Part shown: positions 1 to 23,083 of the stretch, in pieces | Numbering within the stretch: position 1 is the stretch's first letter | Layout of the letters: each line of letters starts with the position of its first letter | Virus record (IMG/VR): IMGVR_UViG_3300026209_000259 | Span: 1 to 24,401 of that record | Reading direction: 5' to 3' (one strand) | DNA length: 24,401 nt | Source: a virus | Notes under the pieces: generated by a model | Told to the model about the DNA's origin: nothing | What the model saw: only the letters and a program-made list of their open reading frames with translations | The model's database searches: none | Made by a program: the position numbers and the translations under genes

Positions 1-258
1 ACGAACCAATGGTAATGCTACACCACTCCACTCTTCCGAGCTTGCTGCGGTACCAGTTCTTGAAGCTTCATCAATTAATTGACGAGCTTGGTTTTCCAAT
101 AGAACTGCCATTCCATTTACTTCATGATCTGCTTTCAAACCTTCTAAAAGGCCTGTAGGCTCCCATTTCTTGACTAACTTACGAGTTTGTTCTAATAGTT
201 GTCTTTGTGGATTATATCCATCCATCAAAGATTCTATTGTTGAAGTTCTTTTACTCAT
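1..258 (-). CDS. 23: Major capsid protein, gp23-like, N-terminal 86 residues (runs off the window)
   Basis: This is the start of the T4-type major capsid protein, which forms the hexamers of the icosahedral head. The first 86 codons are visible and the gene continues past base 1. Residues 48-65 (NGMAVLLENQARQLIDEA) and 76-86 (EWSGVALPLVR) match the conserved gp23 N-terminal region of marine T4-like phages as I know it. LIDE|A at residues 61-65 has the (I/L)-x-E form cut by gp21-type proteases and lies almost exactly where T4 gp23 is cut (after residue 65), so residues 1-64 are probably removed during head maturation. The ATG at 258 is preceded by a strong AGGAG (about 265-269). It follows the scaffold gene by 25 bases with no promoter motif between them, so the two are probably co-transcribed. 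Confidence 0.93.
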   Translation of the reverse strand, partial: MSKRTSTIESLMDGYNPQRQLLEQTRKLVKKWEPTGLLEGLKADHEVNGMAVLLENQARQLIDEASRTGTAASSEEWSGVALPLVR

Positions 259-283: not shown

Positions 284-1540
284 TTAAATTATGTTAGCTA
301 ACTTCTTAAAGCGTGCTTTCACATCAGAACCTTCAGAAATTACTTTCTTAGATACTGGTTTTGTAGAAGCAACTGCTTTCGAACTTGAACCTTTCGATTC
401 TTTAATAGGCTTACGACCTTTGAAAGACTCAGCAAGTGTAGAATACACGAGTTTAATCTCTCTAATGTTTTTAGTTCTATCAAATGTTTCAACTACTTTC
501 ATTTTCTGTTCATTAGATAAACCGAAAACTCTAAATAGTTTGTTTGAAAACAATAGTTTTGCGTTTAATAGGTTAACTTCATTTAGTTTAGCACGCAGAT
601 ATTTTACAACATCTCTATGCTCTTTAATTTCTGCTTTAAGGGCATCCACCGCGTCTTCATCTTCATCAGAAACTTCATCTTCTTCAGAAAGTGCTTTCAA
701 CACTTCTTCTAAATCGATGTCGTCTTCATCAGAGATTTCATCTTCTTCTTTGACTACTTCGTCTTCAGAGTTTTCCTTACCAGCTTCGGAATCACTTCCT
801 TCGCCTTCAGGACCCTGAGCACCAGTCTTAGAAGAGTCAGCTGCATCAGCAGCGACTTTGTTGTCAGCTTTACCAATATCAGAAGATACATCGTTTTCTG
901 CTACATTTGCATCAGGTTGTTCTTCAGCTGGAGCTTCTTCAGCACCATCTTCAACATCCTCATCCTCATATTCTTCAGAAACTTCTGCTTCATCATCTTC
1001 ATCTTCTAACTCACGAAGTATTGCTTCAAGGTCGAGTTCTTCTTCGTCTTCATCAGACATTTCATCTTCCTCAGCAATTTCTTCTTCGTCATCTTCATCA
1101 GATATTTCATCTTCTTCAGCAACTGGTTCAACATCATCCTCATCTGCTAATTCATCTTGTTCGTTAGCTGCGTTACCAGGTTCATCTACAGATTCACCTG
1201 CTTCGCCGCCAGCTGGATCTTCAGCAGCTTCTGAATCAGGGTCTACTTCTGCTTCTTCGACTGCGCCATCTTCATCAGATGCCTCGTCTTCTTCAGATAC
1301 AGGACCACCTGCTTCATCACTTGCAGGATCAACTACATCATCTTCATCAGATAATTCGTCTTGTTCTGCTACTTCTGCTTCTTCTCCATCTTCGTCTTCG
1401 ATTTCAGATTGGATTTTCTTAGCCAACATTGATTTTAACTTTGGTGTAAATGCTTCCTCAAGCGCCATTTTAGCATTTGCTAGAGCTGTTTCACGAACTG
1501 CTTTTGCGTCTGCAATGGCTTCTTTTAGTAAATCATCCAT
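284..1540 (-). CDS. 22: Prohead core scaffold protein, gp22-like, with acidic repeats
   Basis: The 418-residue product most likely forms the internal scaffold around which the capsid assembles and which the prohead protease later destroys. Residues 1-45 are a helical, charged N-terminus. Residues 46-298 are extremely acidic, with seven imperfect copies of a unit like EEDEISDEDD (near 59, 83, 127, 142, 157, 265 and 286). Residues 299-372 are a predicted helical domain containing LNEVNLLNAKLLFSNKLF, which resembles the C-terminal scaffold domain of marine T4-like phages. Residues 373-418 form a basic Lys/Ser-rich tail. Position directly before the capsid gene matches gp22 in T4. LLKE|A at residues 4-8 fits a gp21-type site. 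The acidic middle makes long Ser-rich open frames on the opposite strand, which are not genes. GGAG about nine bases upstream supports the ATG at 1540. Confidence 0.85.
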   Translation of the reverse strand: MDDLLKEAIADAKAVRETALANAKMALEEAFTPKLKSMLAKKIQSEIEDEDGEEAEVAEQDELSDEDDVVDPASDEAGGPVSEEDEASDEDGAVEEAEVDPDSEAAEDPAGGEAGESVDEPGNAANEQDELADEDDVEPVAEEDEISDEDDEEEIAEEDEMSDEDEEELDLEAILRELEDEDDEAEVSEEYEDEDVEDGAEEAPAEEQPDANVAENDVSSDIGKADNKVAADAADSSKTGAQGPEGEGSDSEAGKENSEDEVVKEEDEISDEDDIDLEEVLKALSEEDEVSDEDEDAVDALKAEIKEHRDVVKYLRAKLNEVNLLNAKLLFSNKLFRVFGLSNEQKMKVVETFDRTKNIREIKLVYSTLAESFKGRKPIKESKGSSSKAVASTKPVSKKVISEGSDVKARFKKLANII

Positions 1541-1701: not shown

Positions 1702-1703
1702 TT
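1672..1703 (-). terminator. Rho-independent terminator after bS21
   Basis: On the minus strand an A-run (1703-1696) is followed by a short stem ACAC/GTGT (1692-1689 pairing with 1685-1682) with loop TTC, then a run of seven T (1678-1672). The A- and T-runs can extend the stem, so the element could work in both directions. It overlaps the bS21 stop codon and separates the small-protein cassette from the scaffold/capsid genes. The GC content of the stem is low, so it may be leaky. Confidence 0.55.
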
Positions 1704-1899
1704 AATCTTTTTCTTTTAGTACTTTGTACTTATTTCTTAAAATAGCTTTCTTTTTCTTCTCTCGAAGTAAATCAGACTTTTTTCTGTAGAATGATCGTTC
1801 TCTTAATTCCAACATCAGTCCACTTTGTTTGACTTTCCTCTTAAAAATTGAAAGTGCTTTTTCTATCGATTGTCCTTTTCGGACTTCTACTTTAATCAA
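1702..1899 (-). CDS. rpsU: Ribosomal protein bS21 (phage-encoded)
   Basis: This 65-residue basic protein matches bacterial bS21, the small protein of the 30S platform near the anti-Shine-Dalgarno end of 16S rRNA. MIKVEVRKGQSIEKAL, FKRKVKQSG and ELRERSFYRKKSDLLREKKKK follow the whole bS21 length and pattern (beta start, FKR, R-R-x-F/Y, then a long basic helix). Phage-encoded bS21 is known from marine viruses. The start codon is TTG at 1899-1897, preceded by AGAGG at about 1905-1909; there is no in-frame ATG near. The gene lies 12 bases after the upstream stop and is followed at once by a terminator. A role in steering host ribosomes to phage mRNA is a common proposal, not shown here. Confidence 0.88.
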   Translation of the reverse strand: MIKVEVRKGQSIEKALSIFKRKVKQSGLMLELRERSFYRKKSDLLREKKKKAILRNKYKVLKEKD

Positions 1900-1911: not shown

Positions 1912-2355
1912 TTATTTTTTCTTATTTGTTTCTGGATCATATCCATATTGTTTGTCGAAAAATAAATCTTCATTAGACCATTTTCTTAACAATTTTGCAA
2001 TTTTATTAATGTTCTTCAAATTACCAGCTTTAGTCTTCCTTGAATCACCTTTAGCTTGGAACACTACCTCATACTTTTTATCCATCATAAAATACAACCA
2101 ATCTCTATGTAGACCAGAATGTGGATTTCTTCTTGCTACCTGATACTTAATAGCATAATAAATAGGATGGGGAAACATTTCCTCTGTACCGACCTCAATA
2201 TGTCCACCACCATCTTTTTGAAATTTTTTCCAAATCTTATCTAAAAATTTGTGAATTTCTGCCTTTGTTTTTTTAGGCACTCCTGATCCTGACTTTGTTC
2301 TAAATCTATATAATCGAGTAGGATTTTCTTCTAATAATTCTTTCAGTTTAATCAT
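1912..2355 (-). CDS. Putative capsid-targeted internal protein (147 aa), unknown function
   Basis: I do not recognise the body of this protein. It opens with MIKLKELLEEN, the leader shared by the neighbouring genes, ending in L-E-E before Asn as a possible prohead-protease site. The rest is basic and mixed alpha/beta, with aromatic stretches such as DWLYFMMDKKYEVVF (about residues 85-99) and a Lys-rich tail. The start overlaps the preceding stop as ATGA, implying translational coupling. From leader and location between protease and scaffold I infer a protein packed in the capsid. Confidence 0.75.
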   Translation of the reverse strand: MIKLKELLEENPTRLYRFRTKSGSGVPKKTKAEIHKFLDKIWKKFQKDGGGHIEVGTEEMFPHPIYYAIKYQVARRNPHSGLHRDWLYFMMDKKYEVVFQAKGDSRKTKAGNLKNINKIAKLLRKWSNEDLFFDKQYGYDPETNKKK

Positions 2356-2996
2356 TAGTCTGTTTCGTTATCTGCTTTATAATTAGCGTCTACATAATTG
2401 AAAAGTTCTTTTTTCTTCTCATCATCTAATTCATCTGGTGAACTTACACCAAACTTTGCTAATGCTTTCTGAAAGAATGCTTCGTAATCACCTTCTTCAA
2501 TTGAATTACCTTTAACTCCAACATCTTCTGCATCTTCTGCTGAATCATCCCCATCCATTTCAAAATATCTACCAAGTACATGGCCCATATCTTCATACAA
2601 TCCACCTAATCTTTGTTGTAAGGAATTAGATTCTTTTGCAATTTTACCAAATGATTTTGATAGATTTGTTAATTCTTTCATATTACGATTTACAGTAACT
2701 TTATCAAACCAATCATTTGTTTCACCTAAAGTGTATGATTTTGCTTGTTCAGCAATTCTTGATAAGTTTTCAGCAACATCTTTAATATTATTATCATTTG
2801 AAAATGTTTCACCGAAACTTGAAAATTGCCCCATTGCTTCTTTAATTTCTTTTGCAGAAACTTTCTCTTGTGTACCATAAATATCTTCTACAATATCACT
2901 TAAGCCTGTATTTGTTCCGCCTCCAATTGCTGGTGTACTAACTACTCCACCTACTACTGAAAAGCCTTCATTTATTATATCTTTTAATTTTGCCAT
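2355..2996 (-). CDS. Putative prohead core/internal virion protein (213 aa)
   Basis: The protein starts MAKLKDIINEGFSVVGG, a variant of the cassette leader with I-N-E|G as a likely cleavage site. The body is helical and acidic. The C-terminal motif (about residues 172-208: FFQKALAKFGVSSPDELDD and then LFNYVDANYKA) resembles a domain I know from internal virion proteins of marine T4-like phages. It is the only cassette gene with its own promoter-like motif (3017-3024) and has AGGAG about 8 bases before its ATG, which suggests strong separate expression, as for an abundant core protein. The function is inferred. Confidence 0.72.
   Translation of the reverse strand: MAKLKDIINEGFSVVGGVVSTPAIGGGTNTGLSDIVEDIYGTQEKVSAKEIKEAMGQFSSFGETFSNDNNIKDVAENLSRIAEQAKSYTLGETNDWFDKVTVNRNMKELTNLSKSFGKIAKESNSLQQRLGGLYEDMGHVLGRYFEMDGDDSAEDAEDVGVKGNSIEEGDYEAFFQKALAKFGVSSPDELDDEKKKELFNYVDANYKADNETD
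2971..2990 (-). repeat. DNA copy of the leader sequence in the 213-aa gene
   Basis: These 20 bases are identical to 6056-6075 in the 151-residue gene and encode the core K-L-K-D-I-I of the leader. Identity at the DNA level beyond the protein need points to spread by duplication or recombination. Confidence 0.55.
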
Positions 2997-3016
2997 TTTG
3001 AATCTCCTAATTCATT

Positions 3017-3024
3017 TATAAATA
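3017..3024 (-). promoter_or_regulatory. Putative late promoter before the 213-aa core protein
   Basis: TATTTATA is read on the minus strand in the 31-base gap between two genes, 20 bases before the ATG at 2996, with an AGGAG between. It matches the motif in the other intergenic gaps. Confidence 0.45.
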
Positions 3025-3027
3025 TCA

Positions 3028-3426
3028 TTAACGGCGTTTTTTACCACCCAAATACTTACGAAATCTATTTTCTACTTTACTCCATAATACTTTTAACATA
3101 TCACCAACACCATGACTTGTATTAGAAGCCTTACCTGAATCTAATCCTCGAATCAAATCCATCGCATCATATTTGTTATTCTTTACACCACTTAACATTA
3201 TTGCAATTGCTCTTTGTGATGATTTATTAAAAATTTTTCCCATTTCTTTAATGTCTGTTTCTACATGCTTTTGAGCTTCTTTATTTGAATAAGGTAACTT
3301 ATGGGCTGTCATCTCATCAACACCTTGTTTAACAAATTCTGTAATTAATTGTTCTAAAACATCTGGTTCATCGTAATCTTCACCAAGTCTAAAATCTTTC
3401 CATTGTGCCCACATTTTTGGATTCAT
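3028..3426 (-). CDS. Hypothetical protein (132 aa), no leader
   Basis: I do not recognise this protein. It is largely helical, with an acidic N-terminal part (residues 1-50) and a strongly basic C-terminus ending KYLGGKKRR. It lacks the MIKLK leader of its neighbours, starting MNPKMWAQWKDFRLGED. Its start overlaps the stop of the 404-residue gene. The basic tail could bind nucleic acid or the acidic scaffold; that is inference from charge alone. Confidence 0.65.
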   Translation of the reverse strand: MNPKMWAQWKDFRLGEDYDEPDVLEQLITEFVKQGVDEMTAHKLPYSNKEAQKHVETDIKEMGKIFNKSSQRAIAIMLSGVKNNKYDAMDLIRGLDSGKASNTSHGVGDMLKVLWSKVENRFRKYLGGKKRR

Positions 3427-4640
3427 TATCTTTTCCTCTTATACATAGTAATTTTTCTTTTCATTGTTGAAGATGATAATTCTTTGTTTGCATTAACTAA
3501 CGCTTCAACAAATCCCATAAGAACTCCATTCTTTTTCAATATGTATTCTATATTTTCAACATCACCCTTTTTAGCTCTTTTAGCCAATTCTGTAAATTTT
3601 CGTGATAAACTATCTTGTAAGGTTTTTAAATTTACTACACCATATCCTTGAATATGTACTTGTGGATTCTTTGGATCAAACTTTCCGTCTTTCATATCTT
3701 TATCTACATAGATAAGATTTTCTTTTAAATGTCTATCTTCTGGACCTGTTCCACCTGATGATTTTAATTTTTTGTGTGGTGGTTCTGCTGACATTGTATA
3801 ACCACAACTCTCTAACTTATCAATCTTTCTTTTTCTATCCCATATATTCTTTTTTCGTTTATCACCAATCCATACATTTTTATTTTGATCTAATTTTTTT
3901 AACAACAAAGGTAATTTAGTTACTTCTGAACTATTCAATCTAAATTTAATAGTATCCATTCCTACTGCATCTACTTTACCACCCCAAAGTTTAATTGCTC
4001 TTTCTAATCTATTTTTTAATTTACTATCACCTACATTACCTAAATGATATTTTTCAAATTCTAAAATTACTGAAGATTCTTTTATTTCAGCAAAATATCC
4101 TATTTTTTCATATTCCCTTTTTACATTTGGTTTATCTATAATAATCAATTCTTTTCCAGATTTCTTATGTGTAACTTTTACTGTTTTACCTCTTTTATAT
4201 GTAAGTCCTAAATCTGATTCCTTTACTTCAACTGGCTCATATCCTCTTTTCTTTTTATTTTTCTTTGTTTGGTGTCCAGGTGTGTTAGATTTATTTCCAC
4301 TATCATCCCAATCATAAGTGTCTGGTTCTGCTATTCTACCCATATCTCCTGAACCCATTGAACCTGCGTGATGCTTACTAAAAGTAGATGTTGAATCAGA
4401 AGTTCCCTTTTGTGAATCTGGTTCATCTTTTACTTTTTTAATTTTTCTGAAATCTTTTTCTTTATTGGGTAGTGAACCACCTTGAAGGGATTCTTCAAAA
4501 TTTTCTTTCTTGAATGCAAAACCATGACCAGTAAAAATCTTACCTAACTCCATACCTTTAGATTCATTTACAGAACAACAATCACCACCACATTCACAGT
4601 CATCTTTCTTAACTTCTATTAAATTTTTTAACTTAATCAT
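3426..4640 (-). CDS. Putative capsid-targeted internal protein (404 aa) with N-terminal Cys cluster
   Basis: This is the largest cassette protein, of unknown function. It begins MIKLKNLIEVKKDD, a form of the shared leader, and is followed by a Cys cluster C15-x-C17-x3-C21-C22 that could bind a metal. A second gp21-like site, SVNE|S, follows at residues 23-27. Residues 30-135 are low complexity and polar, rich in Ser, Gly, Asp and Lys. Residues 136-404 are basic with alternating strands and helices, including a Lys/Arg-rich stretch near 258-275. High positive charge would suit a protein packed with DNA. Start and stop overlap the neighbouring genes. Confidence 0.7.
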   Translation of the reverse strand: MIKLKNLIEVKKDDCECGGDCCSVNESKGMELGKIFTGHGFAFKKENFEESLQGGSLPNKEKDFRKIKKVKDEPDSQKGTSDSTSTFSKHHAGSMGSGDMGRIAEPDTYDWDDSGNKSNTPGHQTKKNKKKRGYEPVEVKESDLGLTYKRGKTVKVTHKKSGKELIIIDKPNVKREYEKIGYFAEIKESSVILEFEKYHLGNVGDSKLKNRLERAIKLWGGKVDAVGMDTIKFRLNSSEVTKLPLLLKKLDQNKNVWIGDKRKKNIWDRKRKIDKLESCGYTMSAEPPHKKLKSSGGTGPEDRHLKENLIYVDKDMKDGKFDPKNPQVHIQGYGVVNLKTLQDSLSRKFTELAKRAKKGDVENIEYILKKNGVLMGFVEALVNANKELSSSTMKRKITMYKRKR

Positions 4641-4957
4641 TAGAATTCAAATCCTGGTGGTGTTCCATATTCACTTTTCTTAATTGCATTCCACACACCT
4701 TTAAGTTCATAATACCAAAACTTCTTAGTATCCAATACCCAAAACTTACCTCTTGGTACTTTTGATGTTTTCTTTGGTCCAAATTTATTTGTCATTGGTG
4801 CTCCATCATCCCAAGTCTTATTAGTTTGTTGAGCCTTTACTGAAGTTTTACCATCACCAACTGCTTGATAAACTTTTGAACCAGGATAATCTCCCTTTAA
4901 AGATACGATAGCTTTTTTACTATCTACTTCATTTAATATGTCGGTTAACTTAATCAT
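4640..4957 (-). CDS. Putative capsid-targeted small protein (105 aa)
   Basis: The function is unknown. The leader MIKLTDILNEV gives an L-N-E|V site. The remaining 95 residues are basic and strand-rich, with a C-terminal block (about 68-87: RGKFWVLDTKKFWYYELKG) that resembles blocks in the next two upstream proteins, suggesting a shared small fold. The ATG overlaps the preceding stop by 4 bases. Confidence 0.7.
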   Translation of the reverse strand: MIKLTDILNEVDSKKAIVSLKGDYPGSKVYQAVGDGKTSVKAQQTNKTWDDGAPMTNKFGPKKTSKVPRGKFWVLDTKKFWYYELKGVWNAIKKSEYGTPPGFEF

Positions 4958-5334
4958 TTTTTATATTTCAACCACTTTTTCCATAATGTATAATCAATAA
5001 TTTTTGAACTTCTTGGTTCTAAATCTTTTGGTTTACCAGTAGCTCTTTTTCTGTATGAAATTTCACCAGCCCATTTTTCTTTATAATCCACAATAAAAAC
5101 ACCACCTGGTATATTACTAATTTGTTGTCCTTTTCTAAGTCTATACTTAACTAATTCTTTAGTGTAAATCATTTTATTTCCACCAGGACCTGCTGTTGAC
5201 CATTGACCTGTTGGTATATCTTTATCACCATAAACATAAACATCGAATGGTTTTTTCACAGTCCAATGTGATGTATCATCACCATACAGATAATGTTTGT
5301 AAGCTTCTGGTATTAAAGTTTTTAACTTAATCAT
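4954..5334 (-). CDS. Putative capsid-targeted small protein (126 aa)
   Basis: The function is unknown. The leader MIKLKTLIPEA gives an I-P-E|A site. The body is rich in aromatic residues and beta-prone (DVYVYGDKD, then IPGGVFIVDYKEKW at about 80-93) with a basic C-terminus. The pattern of a G-D turn, a Gly before F-x-V-x-D, and a Trp parallels the 105- and 151-residue neighbours. It starts one base after the stop of the preceding gene. Confidence 0.7.
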   Translation of the reverse strand: MIKLKTLIPEAYKHYLYGDDTSHWTVKKPFDVYVYGDKDIPTGQWSTAGPGGNKMIYTKELVKYRLRKGQQISNIPGGVFIVDYKEKWAGEISYRKRATGKPKDLEPRSSKIIDYTLWKKWLKYKK

Positions 5335-5335
5335 T

Positions 5336-5629
5336 TTACTTCCAGGCTTTCACATAATCTTTCATAAGACTATCTAATGTTTTCTTAACTTTCTTTTCCC
5401 ATTGACCTAATTTTTTATCTCTACCTTTTAACAATTTACTATTGTTATTCCATCTATCATCTTCATATTCTATACTATCTGAATCAAATGAACCACCTCT
5501 TTTTTGATCTATGTTTTTCTTAAATTCAGCCAAATGACCTTCAACATTACGGACATGAGAGTATAAATCACCCCATTCATTTAATTGTTCTTTTGCTGAT
5601 TCGTTTAATATTTTTTTTAACTTAATCAT
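5336..5629 (-). CDS. Putative capsid-targeted small protein (97 aa)
   Basis: The function is unknown. I place the start at the ATG at 5629, giving MIKLKKILNES, because this aligns with the leader of the neighbours and overlaps the preceding stop as ATGA; an ATG at 5644 would add only five residues (MDTFK). L-N-E|S and a nearby second L-N-E (residues 15-17) are possible cleavage sites. The rest is charged and helical, likely coiled, with a basic C-terminus (KKTLDSLMKDYVKAWK). Confidence 0.68.
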   Translation of the reverse strand: MIKLKKILNESAKEQLNEWGDLYSHVRNVEGHLAEFKKNIDQKRGGSFDSDSIEYEDDRWNNNSKLLKGRDKKLGQWEKKVKKTLDSLMKDYVKAWK

Positions 5630-6081
5630 TTTAAAAGTGTCCAAGTAGTAGGTTTACCATATTTTGCTTTATAATACCATTTCTTATCTTTCATACTAAA
5701 AATATAAGCAAATTCTTCACCACTATGAAATTTTATTGCATCTCTATTTTTCCACTTACTTGTAGCATTACTTTTCTCTCCTCTATCTCTACCATAAAAT
5801 ACAGTTTCACCTTTTTTTGGACTTTCAAATGAATGGTCTTTTCCACCCTTCATACTTTTATCAATAGAAGAAATACCTTGTTGTCCAAGTTTTAATAGTT
5901 GTTTAACTTTCATTGGATTATTATAAAATCTTTTTAAATATTTTCCTGCCCATTCTGGATAACCATCCCAATGTCCGTAAGTACTTACTATTTGTCCATT
6001 AGGTGATTCAATACCAACTAACCATCTTGTACCTTCAGTAATTAATCCGCTCTCTTTTATTATATCTTTTAATTTAATCAT
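5626..6081 (-). CDS. Capsid-targeted protein with YGHWDGYP phage domain (151 aa)
   Basis: Residues 1-11 are the leader MIKLKDIIKES (I-K-E|S) and a second site, I-T-E|G, follows at 14-17. After it comes TRWLVGIESPNGQIVSTYG and HWDGYP (residues 18-42). I recognise this as the small phage domain that usually begins M-G-T-R-S and carries Y-x-H-W-D-G-Y-P; its biochemical role is unknown to me. The C-terminal FAYIFSMKDKKWYYK also fits that family. So a normally free-standing domain appears here behind a packaging leader, and cleavage after E16 would regenerate the usual GTR N-terminus. That is the best evidence in the window that the leader is a detachable module. Confidence 0.75.
   Translation of the reverse strand: MIKLKDIIKESGLITEGTRWLVGIESPNGQIVSTYGHWDGYPEWAGKYLKRFYNNPMKVKQLLKLGQQGISSIDKSMKGGKDHSFESPKKGETVFYGRDRGEKSNATSKWKNRDAIKFHSGEEFAYIFSMKDKKWYYKAKYGKPTTWTLLK
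6053..6081 (-). repeat. DNA copy of the leader sequence in the 151-aa gene
   Basis: This stretch encodes MIKLKDIIK, the closest copy to the consensus. It shares 19 identical bases with 16404-16422 and 20 with 2971-2990; looser copies open the genes starting at 2355, 4640, 4957, 5334, 5629, 19286 and 20822. Confidence 0.6.
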
Positions 6082-6874: not shown

Positions 6875-7498
6875 TTATTCGCCTCGGATTATTTTATTTA
6901 TTATATCTTCCGCCTTACAATAAGAACCACAAGTTCTACCTTGTGTTTGTGTTTTATCAACATTCTCACTTAATGGATACATAAATGCACCATGTGTAGA
7001 TGGATTGGATACGAAATCAAATGCTATTAATTCAAAATCTTTACCTACCTTTAACATTGGTTGGTCATTATCATCTTCGTGTACTGCCTCTACAGAACCC
7101 ATTCCACGAGAACTGATTCCTAATTTTATTCCATTCTTAAATAATTCTCTTAAAATATTTCCACTTGGTGTGGTTAAAATTTCTACCGTACCTAAAAGAT
7201 TTTCACCTTCAAAATGCATTTCAGTAATATTATGAGATACATTTTGTAAATTCACTACTGAACTATCTGGATGGTCTAATTCACCAAGTGCTCTTTTTTG
7301 TTTAACATATCCCTCAGAATAATTCTTTGCTTCTCTTTGTAATATTTCCATCGGATACACTCGACCATTTTGATTCTTTGCATCTGCTCTTTGTAATACA
7401 CCTTTAACAACTAACTTACCATCATTTTCTTTTAATGATTCATTAACTTGATGTTTAGTTATCTCAAAAGGTATATAATCTACTAATAGTTCTCTCAT
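6875..7498 (-). CDS. 21: Prohead core protease, gp21-like
   Basis: This is the maturation protease of T4-type proheads: a serine protease of the herpesvirus-assemblin-like fold that digests the scaffold and trims capsid and internal proteins after (I/L)-x-E. The 207-residue length fits the family. GELDHP (H76), GISSRGMG (S129/S130) and FDFVSNPS (D161 and around) match the conserved blocks around the catalytic His and Ser. Residues 175-207 (after YPLSEN) are a poorly conserved tail with two Cys. It sits between the core candidates and the leader-bearing cassette, which fits it acting on both. The start is close to the preceding stop. Confidence 0.92.
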   Translation of the reverse strand: MRELLVDYIPFEITKHQVNESLKENDGKLVVKGVLQRADAKNQNGRVYPMEILQREAKNYSEGYVKQKRALGELDHPDSSVVNLQNVSHNITEMHFEGENLLGTVEILTTPSGNILRELFKNGIKLGISSRGMGSVEAVHEDDNDQPMLKVGKDFELIAFDFVSNPSTHGAFMYPLSENVDKTQTQGRTCGSYCKAEDIINKIIRGE

Positions 7499-14707: not shown

Positions 14708-17700
14708 CTAACCAAATTTTAAACTACCCAATATCTGATTGATTGGTGCGAATGCTCCTGTGAACTTATATATCTTTCCTTTATATTTGAAAACGATACC
14801 CTCACTTGGAACAATTGCATCTAATCCACCAATTGCACTTAGTTTCTCAATTTGTATTTTTAACTTTTTTAATTTATCTATATTACCAGGTTTTTGTAAA
14901 TCTTTCATCGCACTGATAACTTCTTTTCTCATTTTCTGTACTGATTGTTTTGGTGATGCAGCCATATATCCTTGAATATTTTTTAATATTTCTGCACCTA
15001 CACCAAAGAACAATACTTCAAATGGTTTTATATTTTGTTTAAAAATCTTTTGATGATCCATTTTATCCGTACTTAATATCCAATCTAAAAATTTAGGATT
15101 ATCTTTATAATCTTTTTTAATATCTCTTACCTTATATGATTTATCAAAGAATGCCCATCTATTAACCAAACTAACAAATTGATTTGGTTTTAAACTAACT
15201 TTAAATTGTTTAGATGCATTGAATACATACTCTCTCCACCATGCTTCATGGTATTCACCTAATCTACTATTATCTTTCAGTCCATATTGAGATTGTAATT
15301 TTTTCAATTGTCCTAAAAATTTATTTTTCATCTTATTAAAATTTTGATGTTTAGGTACAGTTAAGAAATTTGGTTTTCCAATTTTAAACATTGATTGTAT
15401 ATGTTGATTCATTTGTTTAATCATACCTGCCAACATTCTAGCACTATCTTTTGGTTGTCCAATTGGTTTACCACTTTCATCATATTCTAATGTACCATGA
15501 AATACAATTTCTGCAATATCATAATCAACTACATTTGCTGTTTTAGGATACATAACCTCTAAGTTCATCCATTTACTACCATTTCCAAAAACTTTATCTT
15601 TTTGTTTATCACTTAAACTACCAATAGCCTTTTCTAAATTTTTCATAGCTCCTACAAAAGCCTTCTCTATATCACCTCTACCACTAAACATACTTTTTAT
15701 ACCACTCGTAGTTGGTGCAGTTTTACCATGATTTTTCAAGTGTCCTTTATTTCGGGCCGCTCTCAACTTCCCATCAACCCAACTTACCATTAGGTTTTGT
15801 CCGTCAAGTTTCTCTGTAACTCCATCTTCTCTATCAAGAGTTCCACCTAACCCATTAATAACTATCTGTTTCAAATCTGAAAATGTAAGATTATTGTCAT
15901 CAAATGGATGACTCATATGTCCATAGGCTCCGCCCATAAGTAGTAACTCCTTTGTATCTTTTGTTATATCTATTTGTTCCTGCATTTTTTTAATTTTATC
16001 CACACCCTTAGTGATATCTTTCATATCAAAAGTAGTGGAATCTTTAACTTTGGCTGTAGGTTTACCAAAGAATTTAACTATTTCCCAACCTAATTTATTT
16101 GCCATATTTGTCATATGTTTTCTATACTTTGGATATGGATTATCAACACTATCTTCATTTGATGTTTTTTGATTTATCGTTTTACCAAATGTAACTGTAT
16201 CAACTCTATCTGCTACATATTGAAAATCGTATGCAGGGTCTGTTGCTCTCTTATAGTTTACAATATCACCAATTACTTCCCATCCTAAAATTTCTGCATG
16301 TTTTGGTGATACTCTTTTATAATCATCAAATGAATTAAAGAAATCATACAATCCCTCATCATCCAATATACCCGCATCAAAGTGTGCTCCAAGTGCACTA
16401 GCTTCTTTTATTATATCTTTTACTGAAGGTTGACTATAAAATTCAAATAATTTTTTAAATTTATTAGTCAACATATTAAAGTTACCTTGATTAAAATATC
16501 CAAATAACTTTTTAAATAATTTCTCTCTTTGTTTATCATCAAGTTTTGGTGAACCTAAAACATTTCTCATAGTAGTACCTGAAATTTCTTTACCACCAAT
16601 GTTAATACTAACATGCGGTGCAGTTAGAAAATACCCATGTTCTTCATGTCCTTTAAGATTATTTTTATTCTTTTTAAAATCTTGAAAATATGATAATCCA
16701 CCACTCTTTTTCTTACCACCCTTTAATCTACCTGCGTCTTTTTTACCAAATATGTAAACAACTGCAGTAGTTTCTGGGTCAAATTTTTTGAGTAAGTTCT
16801 TTGCAACCAATGGTGATGGTTCAAGTATAATCTTATTTGCAGGTACACCCATTTTTGATATATGACGAACTTTTTCTTTATAGTTCATCGGGTGTCGTGG
16901 TAAAGATTTAAGATTAGATGTGGCTATATAAGCGTCATCTACTTTTGATTTTAACCATTTGTAGGTTTTCAAATGGTGGGGCCCAAACGGTTGAAACCGT
17001 CCACCGTATACACCTACGATTCTTTTAATTTTTGATTTCTTTTCGTTCACATATGCTGAATTGGTTGTAAAATCCCCTTTCTCACTAATAGAATATACAA
17101 CATTTTTACTATATAAGTCAAGCGTTTTTTTAAGATTTTCCATTTTTTTACTCGTATCAGTTTTCATAAATGGGCCTCTACGAAGTGTTCTAAATTTTAC
17201 TGGAACTTTTTGTCCAAAAAATTTTTTAGGTGCCAAGATTTTTAATGTAACCATATCTGTTTTATTATCAATTTTGACTAACTCAAAATCTATTTCTTTA
17301 TATTTTCTACCTTTATGTTTAAGATTAAATCCTGTTATATATCTATGAACCTTTCTACCTGATACTGCTTGTTTTGCTCTTTCATCCGTTCTTTGTTTTC
17401 TTAATTTCTTAGTCCACTTCTTTCTACCTTTTGCACTTGGTGATGGAATTACTCCAGCAGGTGCACCAAACTCTTCACCTAAAAATTTTTTCTTTTCTAA
17501 ATCTCTTATCTTATCACCAATCTCTTTACCCTTTAATCCAACGAATTGTTCTCCACCACCCTTTACAGATAAATTAAATGATGATAATTTTTTAAAATCT
17601 TTTCCAATCATCTTACCATACTCTATAATTTGTTTCGGTGATAAGGAAGTTTTCTCTTGTGCTTTTTTAACCATATAAATATTTTCTGGTTTAAAGTTAT

Positions 17701-18754
17701 TCAGATAAACTAAGAACTGAATGTTATTACTTTCTTTAGCACTATACTTTAATGAATTTAAAATTTTACCTAACTTAATTACATCATTCTTTCTTAAAAT
17801 AAATGATAAAAATAAAATATGATCTTTGACATTAGGATAAGGTTTTGTTATCTTTAAGTTTGGAAATATTTGTTTTGTAAATCCTAACTTATCACACATC
17901 GTCATAAATTGTGATGGTTTTTTACCTTTTTGAATAGCCTTTACAAACTCTTCTCTAATTCTTTCTGCACTAACACCCTTTAAATGTGGATTCTTTTTTA
18001 ATGCAATTTCAGTTTCTTTATCAAGTGTTCCACCAATAACTGCTTGAAATCGTAATGCTCTTAATTTTCTCAATGGGTCTTCATCAAATCTTCTATCTGG
18101 ATTTCCTACTGTTTTTACAAGTTTTGCTTTTAAATCTTTTAATCCACCTGTTAAATCTACAACTTGATTCTTTTCTATATCATAAAATAATGAATTGATT
18201 GTTAAGTCTCTTCGGTTAACATCACCCTGTATATCTGAAAAGTCTACTGCTGTGGGTCTTCTACCCTTACCAATGTCCTTTCTGAATGTAGCAATCTCAT
18301 GTCCACCCACAACCACAACTCCAAATGATTTACCAACTTCATAAGTTTTAAATCCACCTTGTTTTGCAATCTTCAATACTTCATCTGGTTTTGCATCTGT
18401 AGCCAAATCGAAATCTTTTGGACTTTTACCAAGAATCGCATCACGAACTGCACCACCCACAATATATAATTGTTTTTTGTTTTTCTTGAATAATCTGTAT
18501 AACCCTTTAATATCACCAGGAACTCTTATTGCAATTTTATTTTCGTTTATATTCTCTTGTTGTTTTTGAACCACTCTGAATTTTAATGCAGGTCTACCAT
18601 TGATAAGTAAATCACCTTTATCGTTCCAATCGATAGATTTAACAACTACTTTTTTGTTTTTGAATCTACCCATCTTAACGGTATCACCAATCTCAATTGG
18701 TAAATCTATACCTTCTAATAGTGGTTTGGTTAACCATTCTGTTAATTGGGTCAT
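14708..18754 (-). CDS. Giant multidomain nucleotidyltransferase: CCA/poly(A) polymerase head + NMNAT-like + polynucleotide ligase
   Basis: The 1348-residue protein has these parts. Residues 18-65 are a small beta domain (EIGDTVKMGRFKNKKVVVKS), perhaps nucleic-acid binding. Residues 75-270 are a tRNA CCA-adding/poly(A) polymerase head with GGAVRD (100-105), D114-x-D116 and RRDLTINSLF (181-190), and DEDPLRKLRALRF (224-236) beginning the following helices. Residues about 430-535 are basic and unassigned. Residues about 577-735 are an NMN-adenylyltransferase-like nucleotidylyltransferase, with GGRFQPFGPHH (584-594) and ISGTTMR (724-730). Residues 778-785, VKDIIKEA, match the cassette leader and include an I-K-E|A site. 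Residues about 935-1345 are a ligase-family domain: EKLDGQNL (981-988, K982 as nucleotidyl-accepting Lys) and EGIVF (1318-1322, motif IV) followed by a Lys-rich motif V. I infer RNA or tRNA repair; the substrate is unknown. It starts inside the preceding stop (ATGA). Confidence 0.85.
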   Translation of the reverse strand: MTQLTEWLTKPLLEGIDLPIEIGDTVKMGRFKNKKVVVKSIDWNDKGDLLINGRPALKFRVVQKQQENINENKIAIRVPGDIKGLYRLFKKNKKQLYIVGGAVRDAILGKSPKDFDLATDAKPDEVLKIAKQGGFKTYEVGKSFGVVVVGGHEIATFRKDIGKGRRPTAVDFSDIQGDVNRRDLTINSLFYDIEKNQVVDLTGGLKDLKAKLVKTVGNPDRRFDEDPLRKLRALRFQAVIGGTLDKETEIALKKNPHLKGVSAERIREEFVKAIQKGKKPSQFMTMCDKLGFTKQIFPNLKITKPYPNVKDHILFLSFILRKNDVIKLGKILNSLKYSAKESNNIQFLVYLNNFKPENIYMVKKAQEKTSLSPKQIIEYGKMIGKDFKKLSSFNLSVKGGGEQFVGLKGKEIGDKIRDLEKKKFLGEEFGAPAGVIPSPSAKGRKKWTKKLRKQRTDERAKQAVSGRKVHRYITGFNLKHKGRKYKEIDFELVKIDNKTDMVTLKILAPKKFFGQKVPVKFRTLRRGPFMKTDTSKKMENLKKTLDLYSKNVVYSISEKGDFTTNSAYVNEKKSKIKRIVGVYGGRFQPFGPHHLKTYKWLKSKVDDAYIATSNLKSLPRHPMNYKEKVRHISKMGVPANKIILEPSPLVAKNLLKKFDPETTAVVYIFGKKDAGRLKGGKKKSGGLSYFQDFKKNKNNLKGHEEHGYFLTAPHVSINIGGKEISGTTMRNVLGSPKLDDKQREKLFKKLFGYFNQGNFNMLTNKFKKLFEFYSQPSVKDIIKEASALGAHFDAGILDDEGLYDFFNSFDDYKRVSPKHAEILGWEVIGDIVNYKRATDPAYDFQYVADRVDTVTFGKTINQKTSNEDSVDNPYPKYRKHMTNMANKLGWEIVKFFGKPTAKVKDSTTFDMKDITKGVDKIKKMQEQIDITKDTKELLLMGGAYGHMSHPFDDNNLTFSDLKQIVINGLGGTLDREDGVTEKLDGQNLMVSWVDGKLRAARNKGHLKNHGKTAPTTSGIKSMFSGRGDIEKAFVGAMKNLEKAIGSLSDKQKDKVFGNGSKWMNLEVMYPKTANVVDYDIAEIVFHGTLEYDESGKPIGQPKDSARMLAGMIKQMNQHIQSMFKIGKPNFLTVPKHQNFNKMKNKFLGQLKKLQSQYGLKDNSRLGEYHEAWWREYVFNASKQFKVSLKPNQFVSLVNRWAFFDKSYKVRDIKKDYKDNPKFLDWILSTDKMDHQKIFKQNIKPFEVLFFGVGAEILKNIQGYMAASPKQSVQKMRKEVISAMKDLQKPGNIDKLKKLKIQIEKLSAIGGLDAIVPSEGIVFKYKGKIYKFTGAFAPINQILGSLKFG
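16404..16422 (-). repeat. DNA copy of the leader sequence inside the giant gene
   Basis: These 19 bases are identical to 6053-6071, the leader-coding stretch of the 151-residue gene, and 16 of them recur at 2971-2986 in the 213-residue gene. All three encode K-D-I-I-(K/N)-E in the same frame. The identity includes synonymous positions. Confidence 0.6.
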
Positions 18755-18903
18755 TTTTTTAACTCTTGTTTAATTATTTCTCTAATCTTCTTTACTACAA
18801 GTCTTTCAGTTAAATCATCTTTAAGTTCTGCTTTATCTCTTGAAGACATTCTTAATCTTTTCTTTCCGATTTCTCTCGGTTCGTCTATGTGAAATGTTTT
18901 CAT
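18751..18903 (-). CDS. Small basic protein (50 aa)
   Basis: The frame reads MKTFHIDEPREIGKKRLRMS and ends KKIREIIKQELKK. It is helical and basic, with no recognised family. Its ATG overlaps the stop of the 128-residue gene as ATGA and its own TGA overlaps the ATG of the giant gene as ATGA, so it fills the gap exactly. That tight fit is the main evidence that it is translated and that it couples translation into the giant gene. Confidence 0.6.
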   Translation of the reverse strand: MKTFHIDEPREIGKKRLRMSSRDKAELKDDLTERLVVKKIREIIKQELKK

Positions 18904-19286
18904 TTATACATCCTCAATAAATCTTCAAAATCAAAATCTGTTGAAAAATCTTTATCTCCATACTTATCCCAACTGCCAACATCGGATTGGAATCCCTCGT
19001 ACTTATCACCAGTATTTGTAATCTTTTTTATCACTTGAACAATTTGTGTCTTTTTATCCTTTGTATCATAAATTTGAGTTGATTTTGGAAAGTCCATTTG
19101 TTTATATCCACCCTTTTCATACCAAGGCTCAGGTTTATTTTTATTCACACCTAATTCTCTCTTCATTCCTTTTTTTGGTAGAAATCCTGTATCCTTTTCA
19201 CCTTCATCATTACTTGCCATAGCTCGAGATGAAATCTCATTCATAAAATTATTTCTATTTTTAAATATATCTTTTAATTTAACCAT
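18900..19286 (-). CDS. Putative capsid-targeted protein (128 aa), leader variant
   Basis: The function is unknown. It begins MVKLKDIFKNRNNFMNEISS: the first seven residues follow the shared leader but the usual Glu at position 9-10 is absent; the nearest Glu is in FMNE|I at residues 14-17. The rest is polar and charged, with Lys and Asp in patches (NKNKPEPWYEKGGYKQ) and an acidic end (DFSTDFDFEDLLRMYK). It sits 3 bases after the Cys/His/Asp protein gene. Confidence 0.62.
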   Translation of the reverse strand: MVKLKDIFKNRNNFMNEISSRAMASNDEGEKDTGFLPKKGMKRELGVNKNKPEPWYEKGGYKQMDFPKSTQIYDTKDKKTQIVQVIKKITNTGDKYEGFQSDVGSWDKYGDKDFSTDFDFEDLLRMYK

Positions 19287-19289
19287 AAT

Positions 19290-19604
19290 TTATCTCGGTG
19301 GTTTTGATTCCCAAGGCCCCCAATGTGCACTTTTAACCATTAATTTTGCTGCCTCTAAATATTTGTATTTATAAAGTGGATATCCTTTAACTGGTATTCC
19401 ACCCAATTCATAATACCTTTTTTTAGGTAATTTAATTTTATTATCATTACTAAAATCTAATACCGTATTTCCCTTTTCAATCCAACAATGTCCAAATGGT
19501 TTCCCATCTCTCGCCATAATAGCAACTCCATGAACCAATCGATAAGAATTATCCTTACCAATCATCCATCTACCATTTGCTGCGTAACAATCTCCTTTTG
19601 GCAT
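19290..19604 (-). CDS. Small Cys/His/Asp protein next to the endolysin (104 aa), possible cysteine-hydrolase fold
   Basis: I chose the ATG at 19604, which overlaps the endolysin stop as TAATG and gives MPKGDCYAANGRWMIG; an ATG at 19631 lies inside the endolysin gene. C6 in GDCYAANGRW, H39 in FGHCWIE and D50 in VLDFS are spaced like the Cys-His-Asp triad of papain-like and transglutaminase-like folds. I have seen similar GDCY...LVHG...GHxWIE proteins in phages without a known role. A hydrolase acting on peptide or cell wall is possible given its neighbour; catalytic activity is inference. Confidence 0.65.
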   Translation of the reverse strand: MPKGDCYAANGRWMIGKDNSYRLVHGVAIMARDGKPFGHCWIEKGNTVLDFSNDNKIKLPKKRYYELGGIPVKGYPLYKYKYLEAAKLMVKSAHWGPWESKPPR

Positions 19605-20086
19605 TATACTGACAACGCTCTCTTGAACCAACCAAACAAAAACTTCTCTTGTTCAGGTTTCTTATTTACTAAATCATAATAATGTTTCATTCTGTAACAT
19701 CTTACTCTATCTAATGATGGTTTATATGTATCGAGTGCACTTTTAGTACCTGGACCAAATCCACCATCAATTGCTAAATCAGCACCTTTACCATTACATG
19801 CTCGTTGTAAAATTCTTACGGCAGTTCCTCTACCTTGATTCACACACATATCAAAAAAGATATGTTTTAAATCATCAGATAAATCATCTACCTTATTCTT
19901 ATCCCAATAGTCTCTTTTGTAAATTTCTTTAGCACCTTCTTTAGTTAAATTCTTAATATCTACATCTGGGTAAAATCTACCCGCGATACCAAAATTAGTC
20001 TCCCCACCTAAATCTTTTGGGTCGTGAACATAACCGCCTTCGTGATGTAAAGTTACTTCTATAATTTCATCAAATGTAGTTAACAT
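19604..20086 (-). CDS. Endolysin, glycoside hydrolase family 108 (160 aa)
   Basis: This is a lysozyme-type muramidase predicted to cut peptidoglycan at the end of infection. HHEGGYVHDPKDLGGETNFGI (residues 14-34) is the hallmark of GH108, with E16 as catalytic Glu. Residues 75-160 match the usual C-terminal peptidoglycan-binding half, including DMCVNQGRGTAVRILQRA and IDGGFGPGTKSAL. No signal peptide is seen, so it would need a holin. The ATG at 20086 is preceded by AGGAG (20095-20099); a longer frame from 20239 would overlap the kinase gene. No holin is certain in this window. Confidence 0.88.
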   Translation of the reverse strand: MLTTFDEIIEVTLHHEGGYVHDPKDLGGETNFGIAGRFYPDVDIKNLTKEGAKEIYKRDYWDKNKVDDLSDDLKHIFFDMCVNQGRGTAVRILQRACNGKGADLAIDGGFGPGTKSALDTYKPSLDRVRCYRMKHYYDLVNKKPEQEKFLFGWFKRALSV

Positions 20087-20087
20087 T

Positions 20088-20822
20088 TTATTTTCTCCTA
20101 AGTAGTTTTTGTTTACTAACCCATAATCTTCCGAGTTGGTTTTTGATGGGTTGGTTAACAAACTTTCTAACAACTTTAGTAACCAATGGAACAAATTTTG
20201 CCTCCGCTTGTTTTTCGGATAAATGTTTTGAATTATCAATTATCACGAAATTGTTTTTAAATAATGATTGGAAAGCACCAAGATTCTTCTGTACATCTTT
20301 CCAACTCTTCTCTAATAAATCTTCTGGTAAAACTCTATCTCTCAACTTGTTTCTTTTTTGTGCTACCTCTAATGATGTATTTACCATACACATATAGGTA
20401 TCATATCCATCTGCTTCTAACTCTTTTTTCATAGTGTGTATCTTACCAAAATCGTGTCCTGTACCATCTATAACCATTCCTAACTTACCTTGTCGATATA
20501 ATTTCATTCTTTGTTTGGTAAGTGATTTTGAATACTTTCTCAATCCACTTGCATCTGGCCCATCACCTGTTAAGTTCTGAAATACTTCATCTGGCATCTT
20601 ATCTAACTCTGTACCAAATCCGTATTTGTTTAATAAGTGTTTTAACTCTTTATCAGAATTAACCATTTTCATACCACTCATCGCTATATTAAATTTATCT
20701 GGAATACCAAATAATTGTTTTGCTATGTAGGTTTTACCACTTCCTGGACCACCAGCAAGAAATACTGCTTTGAATATACCTTTGTCTTGTACACCCTCAA
20801 TAATATTTTGTAATTTAATCAT
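20088..20822 (-). CDS. P-loop kinase, zeta-toxin/polynucleotide-kinase-like, with leader (244 aa)
   Basis: AVFLAGGPGSGKT (19-31) is a textbook Walker A motif, and the layout (LGMVIDGTGHDFGKI near 115-129, Arg-rich lid about 155-170) fits the small P-loop kinases that include zeta toxins and polynucleotide kinases. The substrate cannot be told from sequence. The first ten residues MIKLQNIIEG are the shared leader with I-I-E|G, so the kinase could be packaged in the capsid and injected. It has its own promoter-like motif and a small hairpin in the 38-base gap upstream, and AGGA before the ATG. Confidence 0.78.
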   Translation of the reverse strand: MIKLQNIIEGVQDKGIFKAVFLAGGPGSGKTYIAKQLFGIPDKFNIAMSGMKMVNSDKELKHLLNKYGFGTELDKMPDEVFQNLTGDGPDASGLRKYSKSLTKQRMKLYRQGKLGMVIDGTGHDFGKIHTMKKELEADGYDTYMCMVNTSLEVAQKRNKLRDRVLPEDLLEKSWKDVQKNLGAFQSLFKNNFVIIDNSKHLSEKQAEAKFVPLVTKVVRKFVNQPIKNQLGRLWVSKQKLLRRK

Positions 20823-20860: not shown

Positions 20861-21268
20861 TTACCAAGTTTTAAGTCTCAACCTTCGTTTTCCCTCAAGT
20901 CCGTTTTTCCAACAAAAACCATGATTTCTCCATAATTTATTACGATATATAGGAATTTCTTTTCTATTCAATAAATGATATGCCTGTATTCTATGATGTC
21001 CATCCATAACTTGATTCTTTGAATTAATAAAAATAGGTAATTCAATACCTTGATTTATAATTGATTGAAAATATAATACTAATGATTTATTGGTGTTCTC
21101 ACCAACACACTCACAAACTGGACCCTCTTCATCATTTCTTTCTTTATTTAACTCTTCTATATCACTTACAAATGAAAATGGATTTGTATTAAAATCTTTA
21201 AATTCTTTTACATCAAGAAGTTCATAATTGCTTGGAAATAAAGTTTTAAAAAATTCTTTTTCATTCAT
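20861..21268 (-). CDS. ParB-fold protein (135 aa)
   Basis: Residues 75-107 (IELPIFINSKNQVMDGHHRI and on to IPIY) match the ParB/Srx-like nuclease-fold core, with D89-G-H-H-R93 as the conserved G-H-R-R-type box. The domain binds or hydrolyses nucleotides in several families; here there is no helix-turn-helix part, so it is not a partition protein. Residues 45-65 are acidic with two Cys. The C-terminus is basic (GKRRLRLKTW). It overlaps the aminotransferase stop by 8 bases. Its real substrate is unknown. Confidence 0.7.
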   Translation of the reverse strand: MNEKEFFKTLFPSNYELLDVKEFKDFNTNPFSFVSDIEELNKERNDEEGPVCECVGENTNKSLVLYFQSIINQGIELPIFINSKNQVMDGHHRIQAYHLLNRKEIPIYRNKLWRNHGFCWKNGLEGKRRLRLKTW

Positions 21269-22292
21269 TTAATAATTCCTGTATAAATTTTTCTTTACAT
21301 ATATTTGGTTGTATCGTTAATCTACACCAATTTTTTCTATCATCGTGTGGAATTGAACAATATTTAATTAATACTTTATGTCTATCAAAAAGTTTAATTG
21401 TATCTATATTATCTACTTCATTATTAAAATGTATCCAATTGCAATCAGAATCTATAACATTAAAATCATTACTTAATAAAGATATAATTTTTTTCTTTTC
21501 TACTTTTACATTTTCTATATATTCATTCACAACTGAATAATTATCAAGTAAAAACTCACAATACTTCATTGATACACCAGTTATTTCATACATATGTCTG
21601 AACTTGGATATCAACTCAATATTTTCTTCATTAGAAAAAACCATTCCAACTCTACAACCTGCTGCCCCAAAACCTTTAGAAAAGGTTCTTGTAATAAGTA
21701 AATTAGAATAATTATTTATCTCATTTATTAGACTATCTCTATCACTAAACTCAATATATGCCTCATCAATCAATACTGGAACATCTTGTTCCAATAATAT
21801 TCGTATCTCATCAAAGGATTTATACTCACCCATTGGACTATTTGGATTTGCCAGTATAACTAAATCAGTATCATTTGTTATATTTGATAATATTTTTTCT
21901 GTTGAAACTGTATAATCTTCTTCGTGTGGTATTCCAAAATACTCACAATTATATAATTCAGAATAAACCTTATACATAGGAAATGATGGATGTGAAGTTA
22001 TAACTCTACCATTATCAGTAAAAGTTTCAAATATTGTTTTGATACCAACATCAGAACCAGCACATAAAAATAATTGATTAATTTCTACTCCATAAAATTC
22101 ACACAATCTTTCTTTAAATTTTTGTGTATTTGGGTAATAAAAAAAATCTTCTTGTTTTAAACTCTTCAAAAATTCTTGATATAAATCGTCAGGAAAATGT
22201 TGAGTTCGTTCACTTTGATTTAAAACATAATTGTATTGAGATTTATCATCTAAATCAAATTTTCGTTCTATATATTTCAAATACTTTTTCAT
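21261..22292 (-). CDS. PLP-dependent aminotransferase, HisC-like (class I/II)
   Basis: The 343-residue fold-type I aminotransferase is closest in pattern to histidinol-phosphate aminotransferases. LANPNSPMG (147-155), LIDEAYIEF (174-182) and RTFSKGFGAAGCRVG (202-216, K206 forming the PLP aldimine) are the conserved blocks. The length fits the family (about 340-360). Other HisC-like enzymes act on phosphonates, threonine phosphate or sugar-linked substrates, and with a glycosyltransferase-like gene upstream a surface or small-molecule pathway is as likely as histidine synthesis. Its ATG overlaps the stop of the 34-residue peptide. Confidence 0.85.
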   Translation of the reverse strand: MKKYLKYIERKFDLDDKSQYNYVLNQSERTQHFPDDLYQEFLKSLKQEDFFYYPNTQKFKERLCEFYGVEINQLFLCAGSDVGIKTIFETFTDNGRVITSHPSFPMYKVYSELYNCEYFGIPHEEDYTVSTEKILSNITNDTDLVILANPNSPMGEYKSFDEIRILLEQDVPVLIDEAYIEFSDRDSLINEINNYSNLLITRTFSKGFGAAGCRVGMVFSNEENIELISKFRHMYEITGVSMKYCEFLLDNYSVVNEYIENVKVEKKKIISLLSNDFNVIDSDCNWIHFNNEVDNIDTIKLFDRHKVLIKYCSIPHDDRKNWCRLTIQPNICKEKFIQELLNE

Positions 22293-22393
22293 TTATATAT
22301 AAACGGGTCTCGTTTTCTAATCTCTTTAAGTTTCTTTTTAAATAGTTTATCTTCTCTACGCTTTTTAAACCAATTTATTATTTTTTTAATCAC
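22289..22393 (-). CDS. 34-residue basic peptide with GTG start
   Basis: The frame reads (M)IKKIINWFKKRREDKLFKK and continues KLKEIRKRDPFIYK before TGA. GGAG lies 6 bases before GTG at 22393-22391, and the TGA overlaps the aminotransferase ATG as ATGA, so it is very probably translated. An amphipathic aromatic start and a Lys/Arg helix suggest membrane or nucleic-acid contact. I have an impression of similar short peptides ending RKRDPFIY in marine phages, but cannot check. Function unknown. Confidence 0.68.
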   Translation of the reverse strand: MIKKIINWFKKRREDKLFKKKLKEIRKRDPFIYK

Positions 22394-22436
22394 TGCTATC
22401 TCCTTTAAATATTTGTGGGTAAGAAAATCTGTTTTA

Positions 22437-23069: not shown

Positions 23070-23083
23070 AACTCCCTCTTAGT

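Follow-up and report, generated by a model that had tools for sequence, protein, structure and literature searches.

Why should a row of phage genes begin with the same ten residues and then have nothing in common? The question is raised by IMG/VR record IMGVR_UViG_3300026209_000259, which comes from an uncultured T4-related phage; the window analysed here is the entire record, 24,401 bases. Nine genes lie between its gene for a gp21-type prohead protease and its gene for ribosomal protein bS21, and seven of them start with the pattern M-x-K-L-x-x-phi-phi-x-E. We read this leader, with high confidence, as a T4-type capsid-targeting sequence (CTS), as the first-pass annotation of the window had proposed. 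The reading is supported by the gp21 homologue, the agreement with the specificity and mutagenesis positions known from T4, the rank of T4 gp24 under a profile of the leader, predicted cuts at domain borders, clustering by gp21 and the basic bodies of the proteins. Genes are named below by the position of their first base, and a slash marks a predicted cut.

A shared leader on unrelated proteins

The shared leader itself is confirmed. All seven starts were found on the minus strand, and the seven bodies behind them, described in the first-pass annotation as unrelated, form seven BLAST families. The two genes of the row without a leader are the DUF3008 gene at 6873 and the gene at 3426, an apparent homologue of which in relative L055 begins MIKLKEILKE, as judged by eye. 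For the gene at 5629 the list of open reading frames (ORFs) gives a TTG start at 5644, the leader start being 5629. Variants had also been claimed at 20822 and 19286. The first, MIKLQNIIEGV, fits; the second lacks (I/L)-x-E within 11 residues, although its relatives do have a complete leader (MIKLMDIVKE/ISANG). The claim that nearly all leaders end in (I/L)-x-E holds for eight of the nine in the window.

A strict form of the motif, M-x-K-L-x-x-phi-phi-(x)-E, occurs in 8 of the 33 window genes, against a chance expectation of 0.012 on average (maximum 2 in 20,000 runs) when residues 2-16 are shuffled. We retrieved 80 related loci by gp21 alone. Among the 87 N-termini picked from them by M.KL alone, 66 (76%; background 6.8%) carry a Glu as residue 10, and positions 7 and 8 are aliphatic. 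Position 4 belonged to the selection criterion, save in a set of unselected ORFs downstream of gp21; there the most informative columns were 4, 2 and 10, with position 4 at the top, a pattern not seen in an upstream control set of ORFs. Of the 86 families with E10, 84 have L, I or V as residue 8, and the leader consensus is MIKLKD(I/L)(I/L)xE. A degenerate DNA scan of IMG/VR, made without gp21, gave 80 loci among the matches listed, nearly all of which contain leader ORFs. Among the loci covered by the two collections there are 245 leader proteins, which fall into 92 body families (65 singletons); this set was itself chosen by the leader, and the counts include related phages and are not independent events.

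The leader is also concentrated in its placement. Across 19 long contigs, leader ORFs are 44 of the 106 ORFs (41.5%) between +0.6 and +7.5 kb from gp21, and 18 of the 179 (10%) between -20 and -9 kb, where the kinase and its neighbours lie; at other distances they number 1/370, 1/155 and 3/106 (0.3-2.8%). All 82 profile matches scoring at least 12 are on the gp21 strand. The first-pass annotation had asked whether the leader is equally common on early genes. Because the first ten long contigs are without RecA, DNA_pol_A, DnaB and RNR, this control rests on two longer genomes, G021 and G022; they carry 2 and 7 leader genes, and in neither does one lie close to RecA, DnaB or RNR. With this and the clustering by gp21, the leader is not seen to be an early-gene feature, the gp46-like N-terminus described below being an exception.

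The leader and the prohead protease

A gp21 homologue had been claimed just upstream, and the window protein bears this out: it matches PHROG 207 (E 4e-52), and is 29% identical to T4 gp21 over the domain, with the catalytic His and Ser of T4 aligned. It also matches PDB 5jbl, whose sequence has these His and Ser mutated to Ala, as read off the alignments. T4 gp21 cleaves after L/I-x-E, and the first 10 residues of T4 internal protein III (IPIII) suffice for packaging, with residues 4 and 7 serving mainly targeting and 8 and 10 processing in mutagenesis (PMC9026906). The conserved leader columns, L4, L/I7, L/I8 and E10, coincide with these positions.

Two T4 head proteins extend the comparison: gp24 (MAKINELLRE/S) has its first 10 residues removed by the prohead protease, and gp23 loses 65 residues (PMC9958956). 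In the window lineage gp23 has LIDE/A or LIQE/A near residue 64. When the 1139 ATG frames of T4 are ranked by a profile built only from the marine leaders, gp24 comes first. Other known T4 substrates rank 54-267 under the same profile, except gp23 at 719.

The predicted cut coincides with a domain border. The 6081 protein begins MIKLKDIIKE-SGLITE/GTRWLVG, and its PHROG 1987 match starts at residue 17. Its IMG/VR matches are leaderless in 48 of 81 cases, with the initiator Met exactly at residue 16 (MATRSRIG, MGTRSRIG), and cyanophage homologues such as that of P-SSM2 likewise start there. Extended homologues occur in thirteen distinct contexts. One has a TTG start; the others (12/12) have [LIVFM]-x-E directly before the domain, in differing sequences (QNIINE, QTVLTE, YQINE, SVVINE, KENIINE, GTVNE). 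AlphaFold gives residues 1-16 of the 6081 protein a predicted local distance difference test score (pLDDT) below 50 and places the first strand at 17; in a second family residues 1-25 are disordered. One related contig, L317, carries at 1501-1968 a 6081-type domain in frame behind an apparent homologue of the window 8276 gene (junction VLTE/GTRW), apparently a cargo domain fused to a core-region protein.

The kinase at 20822 shows the same arrangement. All 23 distinct contexts have [LIVFM]-x-E directly before the kinase domain; among them are Pelagibacter phage HTVC008M and Methylophilales phage Melnitz, with leaders of quite another appearance. Elsewhere, too, one border Glu stands behind different leaders, as in the immuto MRLLELLRE/AKEAIEDF and the L186 MIKLKDILSE/AKTKFEDF. 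Conserved phi-phi-x-E also occurs inside the cytidylyltransferase domain, so that the gp21-site motif alone is no proof of cleavage, and in a ligase-like module Met replaces Glu in 11 of 25 contexts.

Bodies behind the leader

The bodies are basic. Their median net charge is +0.055 per residue against -0.016 (p=2e-17) for a background of ORFs of at least 150 residues from two relatives, some spurious ORFs included; the 6081 body has a net charge of +12 after E10. Domains found behind the leader in the relatives and the window are zeta-toxin/AAA_33 kinase, Nudix, RNase_T exonuclease, HD, GNAT, cell-wall hydrolase and ART-PolyVal, with weak matches to PolyVal zincin and HAD-like phosphatase, while the majority of bodies have no recognised domain. 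The 2996 product is probably a core protein rather than cargo, because it is acidic, has many L/I-x-E sites and is conserved, its leader included, in about 20 relatives.

The ART-PolyVal domain (E 4e-20) stands behind MIKLKVLLFE in a single relative (L295:11341-11877, a 369-kb phage contig). T4 Alt is a packaged, injected ADP-ribosyltransferase (ART), and the L295 protein is a possible functional analogue of it, although of another ART family; the window itself has no recognised ART. Visual inspection suggested that the A2/A3 family is ART-like, but a Foldseek search gave no fold match and we therefore claim no function for it. Pfam did not support the ART-like motifs picked out by eye in L177, L186, L187 and L169. 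Nor do we claim a function for the 6081 protein, which has no fold match in PDB, its other structure matches being only to uncharacterised phage proteins. Cultured phages yielded no homologue of the 4640 protein, and no clear defence theme emerged from PADLOC.

A Cys-rich stretch of the CECGGDCCS type, possibly a metal site, directly follows the leader in the protein encoded at 3426-4640 and in otherwise differing proteins, for example in L008, L013, L016 and L067.

A modular protein with internal sites

One window protein has 1348 residues and contains by Pfam a PolyA_pol (poly(A)-polymerase/CCA-type) domain, a CTP_transf_like (cytidylyltransferase-like) domain and further unassigned modules, with phi-phi-x-E sites at the domain borders. 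Its predicted junctions include FLGE427/E and IIKE784/A. Its homologues, of about 930-1720 residues, share an N-terminal part (MxxLTEWLTKPLxxE...) and a conserved C-terminal part, the middle modules being swapped. Of 100 homology breakpoints, 16 lie no more than 6 residues from a phi-phi-x-E, where 4.9 would be expected (p=0.0002), the breakpoints coming from related proteins and so not being independent; five control residues gave no enrichment. In some phages one module family stands by itself as a leader protein; elsewhere it lies inside the long protein, between phi-x-E sites (GVINE/AEPKFQSVH ... FRKWYNERGGIINE/).

This pattern suggests that the 1348-residue protein may be a packaged polyprotein that the prohead protease would cut. 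Pfam found none of the typical polyvalent domains (LPD, MPTase, ART, ParB) in it or in four long homologues, and we therefore do not file it as a polyvalent protein. We give an even chance to the wider proposal that the head is loaded through one portable tag which any gene can acquire, with polyprotein cargo of about 930-1720 residues being cut into enzyme modules inside the head by the prohead protease.

Interpretation

If the leader works like its T4 counterpart, residues 2-7 would bind the forming prohead core late in infection and the tagged protein would be built in. The gp21-type protease would then cleave behind the Glu that closes (L/I)-x-E, at residue 9-10, a step strongly supported by the motif and the domain borders, and sometimes at a second site nearby, such as LITE16 in the 6081 protein. 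T4 precedent and basic charge suggest that the mature, mostly basic protein would be released inside the head and stay with the DNA. Some products, such as that of 2996, would be core proteins and be digested, leaving the rest as cargo able to exit with the DNA at the next infection. Injection and early action would follow, and the enzyme types fit published predictions of packaged effectors (PMC5512222, PMC9503650). Functions of T4 IPI and IPIII in particular hosts provide tested precedents (PMC3012670, PMC9391042). The sequence itself shows the leader, where it sits, the match of the protease and the coincidence of cut sites with domain borders; from these correspondences we infer binding, cleavage and packaging of the leader proteins, and with less certainty the injection and action of each protein. 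A CTS with cleavage is very highly probable; that the proteins survive as head cargo is likely, and that the cargo is injected somewhat less so.

The leader proteins might instead be core-assembly peptides, all of them scaffolding that gp21 degrades and expels, with nothing delivered. The 2996 product, acidic and rich in L/I-x-E sites, does resemble T4 core proteins, and T4 gp22, gp67 and gp68 are cut to pieces (PMC9026906). Most window bodies, however, are basic and have few or no further L/I-x-E sites, and the bodies include enzymes useless to scaffolding (Nudix, HD, exonuclease, GNAT, cell-wall hydrolase, ART and kinase), which makes this account improbable. It is very unlikely that the leader is a DNA or RNA signal, whether late promoter, translation enhancer or cassette-shuffling recombination seam, that happens to be translated. 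Gene exchange would be helped by a shared start and the leader codons are more uniform than those of the bodies (ATA at Ile7 89% vs 37%), but what is conserved is the amino acids: I and L swap at 7 and 8, K3 is AAA or AAG, and position 6 is D or E. Conservation ends at codon 10, with only a Shine-Dalgarno signal conserved upstream, and cultured phages whose leaders are entirely different retain the Glu at this domain border (MKTFAELQE/G, MIPFILKE/G, MRLLELLRE/A). The codon and upstream analysis thus argues against a promoter, translation or recombination element.

An address of another kind, for membrane attachment or a host complex or as a degron, with the Glu coincidental, would suit a short, amphipathic-looking leader for which a short helix over residues 4-7 or 4-8 is predicted by AlphaFold. 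We give it very little credence, as it leaves the link to gp21, the match to gp24 and the L/I-x-E at domain starts unexplained. Hardly credible is the recent duplication of one gene whose paralogous bodies diverged past recognition. Some bodies do group, one single-linkage cluster having 43 members, but the bodies contain known unrelated domains, each beginning behind the leader (Nudix at residue 16, ART-PolyVal at 29, RNase_T, GNAT, HD), and leaderless or differently led homologues exist; the unrelated domains lead us to reject body paralogy.

Several points weigh against the CTS as we read it. Nine leader-like genes are scattered over the 369-kb relative, and clustering by gp21 is therefore not universal. 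In three relatives gp46/SbcC-like proteins, which are not expected inside the head, have a leader-like N-terminus, mostly without the Glu. Under the marine-leader profile the T4 internal proteins, Alt and gp22 come no higher than ranks 54-211 of 1139, so that outside gp24 the likeness is one of design and not of sequence; sequence homology between the leader and the T4 internal proteins is not supported. The kinase domain itself could account for the Glu in front of it, as one of its own conserved residues. The uniformity of the leader codons means that part of the sharing is common descent, and we found no virion proteomics for the window lineage.

The gp46/SbcC-like proteins start MIKIKDILKDLN or MIKVKKVLEEVN in G001, G003 and G007 (L089, L100, L113), with no clear cut site.

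Relation to known systems

The CTS principle is already known, from the work of Mullaney and Black on T4 IPI-III (reviewed in PMC9026906 and PMC3012670), and has been suggested as perhaps a general T4-like route for loading diverse proteins (PMC9026906); here it is greatly expanded. The leader resembles the T4 peptide in being an N-terminal sequence of about ten residues on unrelated basic proteins, ending in gp21-type L/I-x-E, with key positions 4, 7, 8 and 10 and a gp21-family protease in the genome. It differs in its consensus, which is closer to T4 gp24 than to the internal proteins (MKTYQEFIAE), and in that its genes form a cassette directly after gp21, with the body families spread across the relatives. 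The first-pass annotation held that the set was far larger than that of T4. This stands as a count, with about 8-10 genes in a 24-kb fragment against four CTS cargoes in T4 (IPI-III and Alt); the 2996 product looks more like a core protein than cargo.

The ejection proteins of phiKZ and SPN3US (PMC5694885) are likewise many head proteins matured after Glu by a gp21-related protease, some with identical N-termini on diverged bodies; their propeptides, however, are mostly longer than 100 residues, with the motif A-x-E or S/A/G-x-E and no uniform 10-residue tag. Polyvalent proteins (PMC5512222) and the NAD/ADP-ribose enzymes of myoviruses (PMC9503650) are multi-domain or enzymatic and predicted to be packaged and injected, and share ART-PolyVal, PolyVal zincin, Nudix and nucleotidyltransferase domains with the present set. 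The case for their packaging was made from context and from fusions to structural proteins, whereas the window lineage has a specific N-terminal tag and protease sites, and a 1348-residue protein that looks, by prediction, cut into modules by the prohead protease.

Our literature search turned up no description of a leader like this one in marine T4-like phages. Within the open-access literature, to which that search was confined, the uniform tag in an uncultured lineage, the scale, the gp21 cassette, the domain-border evidence and the candidate polyprotein are new. Phage proteins injected with the DNA are known for a few cultured phages only. Should the leader prove to be a packaging tag, sequence alone would give the packaged proteome for a large group of uncultured aquatic phages. 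The 92 tagged body families, most of unknown function, would then be candidates for host takeover in the first minutes and for counter-defence. The leader also gives direct predictions of mature N-termini, checkable in cultured phages.

Features of the window

The minus-strand order is the 1348-residue ORF, terminase, portal, core-region genes, gp21 protease, DUF3008 gene, cassette, bS21, scaffold-like gene and gp23. Judged by gp21, the nearest cultured relatives are Microcystis phage Mel-JY01 (56%) and, at 49%, the Flavobacterium immuto phages.

Table 1. Leader genes and neighbouring features of the window.
Feature	Position	Strand	Remarks
gp23 major capsid protein, N-terminus	1-258	-	propeptide ending LIDE/ASRTG
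Acidic gp22-like scaffold/core protein	284-1540	-	adjoins gp23; composition
Ribosomal protein bS21, phage-encoded	1702-1899	-	Pfam E 2e-12
2355 leader protein, 147 residues	1912-2355	-	MIKLKELLEE/N; basic body (+16)
2996 protein, 213 residues	2355-2996	-	MAKLKDIINE/GFS; acidic (-19); at least 7 L/I-x-E sites
3426 gene, 132 residues	3028-3426	-	without leader
4640 leader protein, 404 residues	3426-4640	-	MIKLKNLIE/V (MIKLKNLIEVK); basic body (+26); Cys-rich CECGGDCC after leader
4957 leader protein, 105 residues	4640-4957	-	MIKLTDILNE/V; basic body (+9)
5334 leader protein, 126 residues	4954-5334	-	MIKLKTLIPE/A; basic body (+12)
5629 leader protein, 97 residues	5336-5629	-	MIKLKKILNE/S
6081 leader protein, 151 residues	5626-6081	-	start MIKLKDIIKES; PHROG 1987 body; predicted basic cargo
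Second predicted cut of 6081 protein, LITE16/G17	6034-6036	-	
Leader of 6081 protein, MIKLKDIIKE	6052-6081	-	
DUF3008 gene	starts 6873	-	without leader; between gp21 and bS21
gp21-type prohead protease	6875-7498	-	PHROG 207, E 4e-52
1348-residue modular protein	14708-18754	-	start MTQLTEWLTKPLLE/G; Pfam domains
19286 gene	18900-19286	-	weak leader variant MVKLKDIFKNRNNFMNEIS
20822 P-loop kinase, zeta toxin/AAA_33-like	20088-20822	-	leader MIKLQNIIE/G; Pfam

The scaffold-like protein at 284-1540 has no Pfam match. The bS21 gene shares its strand with the structural genes and is without the leader motif; in the phages of PMC9723584 bS21 is on the opposite strand, and its packaging was speculated. 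A Glyco_hydro_108 lysozyme with a peptidoglycan-binding domain is encoded at 19604-20239 on the minus strand. On the same strand, 21261-24375 encodes a class I/II aminotransferase and a SPASM iron-sulphur domain beside genes without known function; this may be a cluster for surface modification or metabolism.

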